Part shown: in pieces, positions 28,963-30,416 of the stretch
How the letters are laid out: every line of letters starts with the position of its first letter
Numbering within the stretch: position 1 is the stretch's first letter
Source: Cytobacillus gottheilii
GTDB lineage: Bacteria > Bacillota > Bacilli > Bacillales > Cytobacillaceae
DNA: 64,000 nucleotides
Direction of reading: 5' to 3'
Assembly: GCF_900166665.1 (NCBI RefSeq)
Contig: NZ_LT800494.1
Location: 2,215,704-2,279,703, forward strand
Notes under the pieces: generated by a model
What the model was told of the DNA's origin: nothing
Database searches by the model: none
Seen by the model: the letters and a program-made list of their open reading frames with translations, nothing else
Made by a program: the position numbers and the translations under genes

Positions 28963-29222
28963 AAAGTGGCCCGACAGAAGAGAAAAACAGAGTTGGCGGG
29001 CACTAAAGATGGGGGAAAGTGCCCGCAGAAGAGGAAACTTGTGGTGGGGGGCACAAAAGGTGTGTGAAAGTGCCCGTCAGAAGAGAAAACCAAGGCTGGG
29101 GGGCACTAAAGCTACGACAAAGTGCCCGTCAGAAGAGAAAACCAAGGCTGGGGGGCACTAAAGGTATGTGAAAGTGCCCGCCAGAGGAGAAAATCAAAGC
29201 TGGGGGGCACTAAAGCTGCGCT
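28963..29222. repeat. Five tandem 51-53-bp hairpin repeats
   Basis: Units begin at about 28963, 29016, 29067, 29119 and 29171. The consensus unit is AAAGTGCCCGTCAGAAGAG followed by AAAACCAAGGCTGGGGGGCACT. AGTGCCC and GGGCACT in each unit can form a 7-bp stem. Units 3 and 4 are nearly identical. The array sits between convergent crcB2 and yidC2, within the 3' region of yidC2. Confidence 0.85.
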
Positions 29223-29235
29223 ATTTTTACATCTG

Positions 29236-30018
29236 TTATACCTCTGTATTTACTATTCCTGCTGTTTCTTTCCTCTGCTGATAGAGCTTACGGCCTAACC
29301 ATGACTGGAATATTAAGAAAATACCTCCGACCGTCCAATAAAGCGGCAACGCAGCAGGGGCATTAAGCGAAATAAAAACGATCATGATTGGGGAAAGAAG
29401 CCCCATAAACTTCATTTGCTGCTGTTGAGCAGCAGGTAAGCTTGCCTGTGAAAACTTGAATTGCAGAAAATAGACAACACCAGCTAATGCTGTAATCCAT
29501 ATATCTGATTGTCCGAGGTTAAACCAAAGAAATGAATGAGTAGCAATTTCTTCTGATCCACGTATGGCATAATAAAAGCCCATTAATATTGGCATCTGTA
29601 TAAGCATAGGCAAACAGCCGATATTAAGCGGGTTTACACCGTGTTTTTGGTATAGCCCCATCATTTCCTGCTGCAGCTTTTGCTGTTCTTTCTGATTCTT
29701 GGTTGATTTTAGCTTTTTTTGTATTTGATCCATTTCAGGTTTTAGCAAATCCATTTTTTCTTTCATTACCTGCTGATTTTTAAATTGTTTCATCATCAGC
29801 GGCATTAATAGCAGTCGCACTGCTAGTGTAATAATGATAATGGCGATTCCGAAATTATCATTAAAAAACATGCCCACATAATGGATGGAAACAGCGAATG
29901 GGTTAACAAATACGGAATGAAAAAATCCTCCGTCACTTCCCTGAGACTGACAGCCAGCAAGCAGTGCTGCAGTCATGATAAGCATCATAAGCATTAATAT
30001 CTTTTTGTTTAATTTCAA
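29236..30018 (-). CDS. yidC2: Membrane protein insertase YidC2 (Oxa1 family, lipoprotein)
   Basis: 260 residues. Lipobox LLAGC; five membrane helices of the Oxa1/YidC core; first helix after the lipoprotein part carries the conserved Arg of the hydrophilic groove (IIITLAVRLLLMPLM); charged cytoplasmic loop (KPEMDQIQKKLKSTKNQKEQQKLQQEMM); GCLPMLIQMPILMGFYYAI and NAPAALPLYWTVGG are family signatures. It is preceded by a MifM-like ORF and an SD-masking hairpin, so it corresponds to the inducible YidC2/YqjG rather than SpoIIIJ. TTG 30018 is 11 nt after AGAAGGGA. Confidence 0.92.
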   Translation of the reverse strand: MKLNKKILMLMMLIMTAALLAGCQSQGSDGGFFHSVFVNPFAVSIHYVGMFFNDNFGIAIIIITLAVRLLLMPLMMKQFKNQQVMKEKMDLLKPEMDQIQKKLKSTKNQKEQQKLQQEMMGLYQKHGVNPLNIGCLPMLIQMPILMGFYYAIRGSEEIATHSFLWFNLGQSDIWITALAGVVYFLQFKFSQASLPAAQQQQMKFMGLLSPIMIVFISLNAPAALPLYWTVGGIFLIFQSWLGRKLYQQRKETAGIVNTEV

Positions 30019-30029
30019 ATTTGTTCAAG

Positions 30030-30070
30030 TCCCTTCTGTTTTTCATTTTAACTATTGAATCAGAGAGGGA
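30030..30070 (-). promoter_or_regulatory. Hairpin masking the yidC2 ribosome binding site
   Basis: On the minus strand TCCCTCTCTG (30070-30061), the last codons and stop of the leader ORF, pairs with CAGAAGGGA (30038-30030), the yidC2 Shine-Dalgarno region: nine base pairs with one bulged C. A ribosome held just before the stop codon would open the stem. Confidence 0.7.
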
Positions 30071-30341
30071 GGTGTGATGCTGTATCGTCATTTGGCGCTT
30101 CTTTTTTGCGAATGCAAATGCAAAGAAAACGCAATTTATAATGAATGTTTAATGAATTACTGATCTTTAAAATATAATCTTCTATATGAAGAGAAAATTG
30201 CTTTTGAAATTTGTTTGGCTTTAAATGAATGGATTCGGCATTCCAAAGCCATACAAATTTAGCAGTAAAGGCGATGAATAAACTAGCATATAATGTGTAA
30301 TGAGCATAGTTATTGCTCATTTCTAATAGAAAATCCGTCAT
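30060..30341 (-). CDS. MifM-like translation-arrest leader peptide upstream of yidC2
   Basis: 93 residues (B. subtilis MifM has about 95) starting at ATG 30341 after AGAGGTGA. One N-terminal membrane segment (about residues 14-33, HYTLYASLFIAFTAKFVWLW), a basic amphipathic middle (IHLKPNKFQKQFSLHIEDYIL) and a C-terminus with RKKEAPNDDTASHLPL, the Asp pair at residues 85-86. MifM is an insertion substrate of SpoIIIJ that stalls ribosomes near its end when insertion fails, opening a hairpin to switch on yidC2. Position, length, topology, acidic end and the hairpin all fit. The exact arrest residues could not be aligned. Confidence 0.72.
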   Translation of the reverse strand: MTDFLLEMSNNYAHYTLYASLFIAFTAKFVWLWNAESIHLKPNKFQKQFSLHIEDYILKISNSLNIHYKLRFLCICIRKKEAPNDDTASHLPL

Positions 30342-30387
30342 TTATTCACCTCTTTTTTTTGCAGTCAGTTCGTTGTGGTACATACAA

Positions 30388-30416
30388 ATTATACAGCAAT
30401 TTGGGTATTATCACAA
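30388..30416 (-). promoter_or_regulatory. Promoter of the leader-yidC2 operon
   Basis: Minus strand TTGTGA (30416-30411), 17-nt spacer, TATAAT (30393-30388), about 47 nt upstream of the leader start codon. The remaining part of the 30342-30650 gap holds nothing else recognisable. Confidence 0.65.

Follow-up and report, generated by a model that had tools for sequence, protein, structure and literature searches.

The window, meaning the whole 64,000-nucleotide stretch analysed here, carries on its minus strand a short leader ORF ahead of a gene for a YidC/Oxa1 insertase. The features of this locus are the following:

29236..30018, minus strand: yidC2, second YidC/Oxa1 insertase, 260 aa, TTG start, lipoprotein-like N-terminus (assigned by Pfam and TIGR03592)
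30030..30038, minus strand: 3′ arm of the stem, CAGAAGGGA, containing the yidC2 Shine-Dalgarno (SD) sequence (predicted fold)
30060..30341, minus strand: leader ORF, very probably of the MifM family, 93 codons, with one N-terminal hydrophobic segment at about residues 15–35
30061..30070, minus strand: 5′ arm of the stem, UCCCUCUCUG, within the last leader codons and stop (predicted fold)
30078..30089, minus strand: codons 85–88 (DDTA), predicted stall region, placed by gap-free alignment to B. subtilis DEED 86–89
30345..30353, minus strand: SD sequence of the leader ORF, AGAGGTGAA, read from the sequence
30388..30416, minus strand: promoter-like TTGTGA-17-TATAAT, from a consensus scan (10 of 12 matches)

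A preliminary description of this DNA had placed a 93-codon ORF with one N-terminal membrane segment 41 nt ahead of yidC2, and this architecture is borne out. Specifically, the ORF runs from 30341 to 30060 on the minus strand, its ATG comes directly after AGAGGTGAATAA, and its stop is 41 nt ahead of the yidC2 TTG at 30018. The stretch upstream of the leader ORF pairs with the 16S tail with a duplex energy of -11.7. The promoter-like site has its first base 75 nt and its last base 47 nt ahead of the leader ATG, and its TATAAT is identical in the aligned C. gottheilii sister; taken alone the site is weak, because the consensus scan gave seven sites against 5.2 by chance. Hydropathy is 1.25 at residues 17–35, with about 53 residues from there to position 88 (about 54 in MifM), and the charges suggest an N-out orientation. 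The Asp pair described for residues 85–86 is found there in the translation.

The YidC2 protein matches Pfam 60KD_IMP at 7.2e-46 and TIGR03592 at 1.6e-53. It is encoded by one of two YidC/Oxa1 genes in the genome, spoIIIJ being separate from the leader–yidC2 locus; the other YidC gene sits between ORFs that we take to be rnpA and jag, the presumed spoIIIJ arrangement. The leader is thus a small uORF immediately 5′ of the secondary yidC and on the same strand, as expected of MifM. By our own count of strong matches, yidC2 is found in 31 of 36 genus genomes, and the five without a full copy are G005, G015, G021, G028 and G031 (L115). In G031 a 36-residue stretch of yidC2 with a stop remains, and the best leader-like frame in the surrounding 10 kb reaches E = 0.089. 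Adjoining yidC2 at window positions 28963–29215 is a 52-bp unit in 4.9 tandem copies with GTGCCC/GGGCAC ends; at E ≤ 0.001 it matches its own genome 46 times and that of C. gottheilii 11 times, and the remaining 34 of 36 genus genomes give no match.

Relatives were drawn from the best 80 of 123 named loci, 30 genus stretches and the window, making 111 upstream regions that come partly from the same genomes. Among the best 80 of 123, the nearest relative is Cytobacillus gottheilii, whose YidC2 is 91% identical. A proposed check, that close relatives keep an intact ORF, came out in favour of the leader: with the best 80 of 123 relatives included, a profile-recognised leader precedes yidC2 in 105 of the 111 partly redundant regions, the profile having been started from 15 loci, the window and its sister among them, with E accepted up to 0.017 (98 of 105 at ≤0.001). 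Four of the six misses (L021, L022, L025 and L066) are regions in which the script called no yidC2 start, and leader ORFs are visible in their sequences. The other two lie beside yidC2; L091 (G008) has lost its stop and ends at a late one, and L106 (G025) has a broken leader frame. Homology to the MifM group was established with a profile of 58 leaders, drawn from the 105 recognised ones and then freed of the window lineage (window and C. gottheilii), which recovered the entire window ORF at E = 5e-18; among the 573 window frames the runner-up reached 0.17.

With respect to selection, comparison of the leader with that of C. gottheilii gives a dN of 0.070 and a dS of 0.698, indicating purifying selection; the corresponding values for yidC2 are 0.047 and 0.888. 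Third positions hold 25 of the 39 differences in the leader, and 15 codons change their amino acid against 26.3 expected by random placement, a number as low being reached in 0 of 5000 simulations. Codons 83–92 are identical to those of C. gottheilii, against 34 differing codons among the 82 that precede them (P = 0.007, or 0.034 for third positions alone), the identical stretch having been picked after the alignment was viewed, though it equals the arrest and stem region. Conservation of the C-terminal region, put forward as a check, is also seen in the aligned tail, where 14 of the 15 residues 78–92 are kept. The stop differs, the C. gottheilii ORF continuing to 97 codons.

The pairing described between the last leader codons and the yidC2 ribosome binding site recurs in our predicted minimum-energy fold, in which UCCCU-C-UCUG (30070–30061) pairs with CAGAAGGGA (30038–30030) through 9 bp with one bulge. 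The predicted partner of the yidC2 SD is the end of the leader ORF, as in SD masking. The SD has a pairing probability of 0.86, compared with 0.55 on average for shuffles, and 1 of 100 shuffles of the upstream bases was as high. Bulk folding energy was rejected as evidence for the stem, the 112-nt region having a z of -1.03 with 29 of 200 shuffles as good. The signal thus resides in which bases pair, rather than in total stability.

A further check, whether the stem is kept across relatives, also came out in favour of the leader. In 87 distinct regions with a leader–yidC2 gap of 0–130 nt, predicted SD pairing averages 0.86, and shuffles average 0.69 (Wilcoxon 1e-13, without correction for relatedness). 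Pairing is at least 0.5 in 84 of the 87, with L044, L062 and L063 below 0.5, and in 84 of 87 at least half of it is with the final 60 nt of the leader; in L111 the SD pairs elsewhere after an insertion. The effect in any single region is moderate, since 32 of 87 reach 0.05 when each is compared with its own shuffles, and 7 of 87 lie below the mean of theirs. Pairing is lower at the SD of the leader itself than at that of yidC2 (0.64 vs 0.86), the yidC2 SD being higher in 66 of the 80 regions used for this comparison. The window has 22 nt between the first acidic codon and the stem centre; across the leaders measured the median is 24 (IQR 21–25, sd 14.6, n = 86). A ribosome halted at the acid cluster would reach about this far with its front edge. 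The lone 5′-arm substitution relative to the C. gottheilii sister is the bulged base; this sole close sister genome, in which the pairs are unchanged, offers no covariation for the stem.

In terms of known systems, published descriptions of B. subtilis MifM, the yidC2 (yqjG) leader, agree with the window in place, length (95 codons, here 93), a single N-terminal hydrophobic segment, an acid cluster near the end, an SD-masking stem, a second insertase as target and a spoIIIJ located elsewhere. The published motif, RIxxWIxxxxxMNxxxxDEED (PMC7897499), is a B. subtilis motif distinct from the published family rule, and many relatives depart from it. The arrest residues are where the window leader differs: in a gap-free alignment to these published residues, Y68 K69 stand against R69 I70, F72 L73 against W73 I74, K79 K80 against M80 N81, and D85 D86 T87 A88 against D86 E87 E88 D89. 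Thus 0 of 6 non-acidic arrest residues are identical and two of four acids are present, and the primary sequence is as divergent as had been stated, with an acid run of two rather than four. This lowers the claim that stalling occurs in the same way and leaves family membership intact. Among the 87 other distinct leaders, position 88 is acidic in 80 and Ala in one, that of C. gottheilii. At position 72, 54 of them have W, 23 have R and 2 have F; the residue there is Phe in both the window and C. gottheilii.

Family membership has been defined over 572 Firmicutes uORFs by a sorting rule that includes a 5-residue charge below -0.3 within residues 70–100 (PMC10987492). The window leader fits this rule as described, having a local charge minimum of -0.4, an N-terminal segment and a soluble part of >30 aa, and by this charge it belongs to the 4 least acidic leaders out of 88. 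According to PMC4423224, stalling in B. subtilis starts with D89 in the P-site and occurs at three further codons; single DEED changes bring no marked loss of stalling, which is impaired when W73 or I74 is replaced by Ala. The acid run has been proposed to support multisite stalling in the paper on CliM (PMC13183943). From these reports together, two acids may suffice, perhaps with fewer sites.

Loss of the acid at 88 and of the Trp at 72 would also be expected had the leader degenerated in this lineage, with arrest weakened or gone and translational coupling alone remaining, each ribosome at the stop codon, which lies within the stem, opening it and aiding yidC2 initiation. We consider this unlikely, given that codons 83–92 and nearly all of the tail residues are kept despite a dS of 0.7, that single DEED substitutions leave B. 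subtilis stalling largely unreduced in the account cited above (PMC4423224), and that Arg replaces Trp at 72 in 23 of 87 other leaders. A remodelling of the arrest in the C. gottheilii lineage is a possibility that we advance tentatively, at somewhat less than even confidence: two acids, no Trp and KK for MN may give one or two stall codons and partly different tunnel contacts. If true, this would provide a natural test of acidic-run length setting the number of stall sites.

The B. subtilis stall needs the ribosomal residues L22 Met90 and L4 Arg66, as reported in PMC4423224. Both permissive residues are established for the genome of the window, where residue 90 of L22 is Met and residue 66 of L4 is Arg, the last of the RKPWR loop. 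An identical L4 loop occurs in 32 sequences, which come from 30 of the 36 genus genomes. Among the 32 genomes read (L168–L197, L228 and L229), residue 90 of L22 is Met in 24 and Gln in 8, and a yidC2 with a leader is present in 7 of the 8 genomes with Gln.

Beyond the genus, an order-level search gave matches at E ≤ 0.001 in 42 of 150 genomes by our own count, and at E ≤ 1 in 108 of 150, mostly by chance. We inspected 45 loci, comprising all 41 non-own genomes at E ≤ 0.001 and four weaker ones that were chosen (G064, G141, G159 and G175), and the leader adjoins a yidC in every one, its best match ranging in position from 80 nt past the estimated yidC start to 51 nt ahead of it. In L129, L148 and L068 the leader overlaps or reads past the yidC2 start, leaving no gap; the same overlap is seen less surely in L139, L140, L142, L156 and L159, where the yidC start is extrapolated.

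These data bear on whether the ORF encodes a small membrane protein with a function of its own that merely resides in the yidC2 operon. Such a protein would account for the coding selection, and the ORF matches nothing in Pfam and nothing convincingly in NCBIfam (Rfam gave nothing useful). We nevertheless judge this explanation very improbable, as the ORF stands beside yidC in 45 of 45 order-level loci, occurs as one copy in its own genome, and has a conserved tail that coincides with the masking stem and its spacing. No leader copy was found in a plasmid search at E 1e-5, and a PDB search for a deposited MifM chain, by single protein and by profile, found none. A chance ORF with a chance stem, to which the region's fold z of just -1.03 might point, is refuted by the homology at E = 5e-18 and the purifying selection, and we give it practically no credence.

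The link from the window to B. subtilis MifM, whose features we took from published papers, is that the profile reaches leaders whose motif almost matches the published one. A profile built from 88 leaders, that of the window among them, recovers L146 at E = 3e-9 and L147 at E = 3e-5 within their 3-kb loci. At whole-genome scale the matches are 3.8e-5 (G078) and only 0.407 (G175, the genome of L147), so that place beside yidC and motif carry the L147 link. The L147 tail, RITTWIRKVIRMNSPANDDED..., fits RIxxWIxxxxxMNxxxxDEED but for one D for E, and L146 departs further; from their tails, both appear to be Bacillus-type leaders, and both stand beside yidC. The yidC leaders CliM (Clostridia) and ApcA (Actinobacteria), compared by description, share the logic of the window leader and have different arrest motifs, and CliM is described as without sequence similarity to MifM (PMC13183943). 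Our literature search found no paper naming both Cytobacillus and MifM.

Start codons of other leaders deserve separate mention. In the C. oceanisediminis/firmus clade, mifM has no ATG, GTG or TTG before the hydrophobic segment (L014:1677, L031:1702, L069:1635, L009:1699 and relatives), one sequence having its first such codon at position 17, another at position 31 and the others at 57 or beyond. The aligned start, after a strong GAGGTGA, is ATC in 12 and ATT in 1 of 13 distinct sequences (20 loci). Three codons 5′ of it the frame is closed by a stop, and mean pN/pS is 0.39. AUC/AUU initiation would be the simplest reading of these alignments, and such a mifM would probably escape ordinary annotation. 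In two further genomes, L091 and L106, an in-frame ATG stands two codons ahead of the aligned start, very near the SD. A literature search by title and abstract start found no report of an AUC/AUU-start mifM, and 'start codon' is absent from the main text of PMC10987492. Our census of 88 leaders (40 ATG, 28 TTG, 12 ATC, 5 ATA, 2 ATT, 1 GTG) is rough because L034 and L036 were assigned starts upstream of a likely TTG/GTG.

Taken together, we consider it highly likely that the window leader and yidC2 form a mifM–yidC2 operon with a MifM-type arrest leader. By position, descent, stem and the published sorting rule the leader is very probably a MifM-family member, and the preliminary reading as a lineage-specific variant of the MifM circuit holds up well, with position, length, segment, stem, homology and separate spoIIIJ in agreement. 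Alongside the ORF, homology, selection, predicted stem, gene context and permissive L22/L4 residues established for the window, we infer stalling, release by insertion and yidC2 induction by analogy to B. subtilis. The N-terminal segment would target the leader peptide to the membrane. With enough YidC activity from SpoIIIJ and YidC2, insertion would pull on the nascent chain, the leader would be finished, the stem would re-form and yidC2 would stay low. If YidC activity dropped, the C-terminal segment would hold the ribosome at about codons 86–89, its leading edge within the 5′ arm (the stem centre is some 22 nt from the first Asp codon), leaving the yidC2 SD free and YidC2 to be made.

The MifM circuit would accordingly extend to the C. 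gottheilii lineage of Cytobacillus, with drift in the arrest residues and conservation of gene order, of the stem and of its distance from the stall. Since the architecture is kept as these residues drift, the acid-number model of multisite stalling becomes testable with natural variants.
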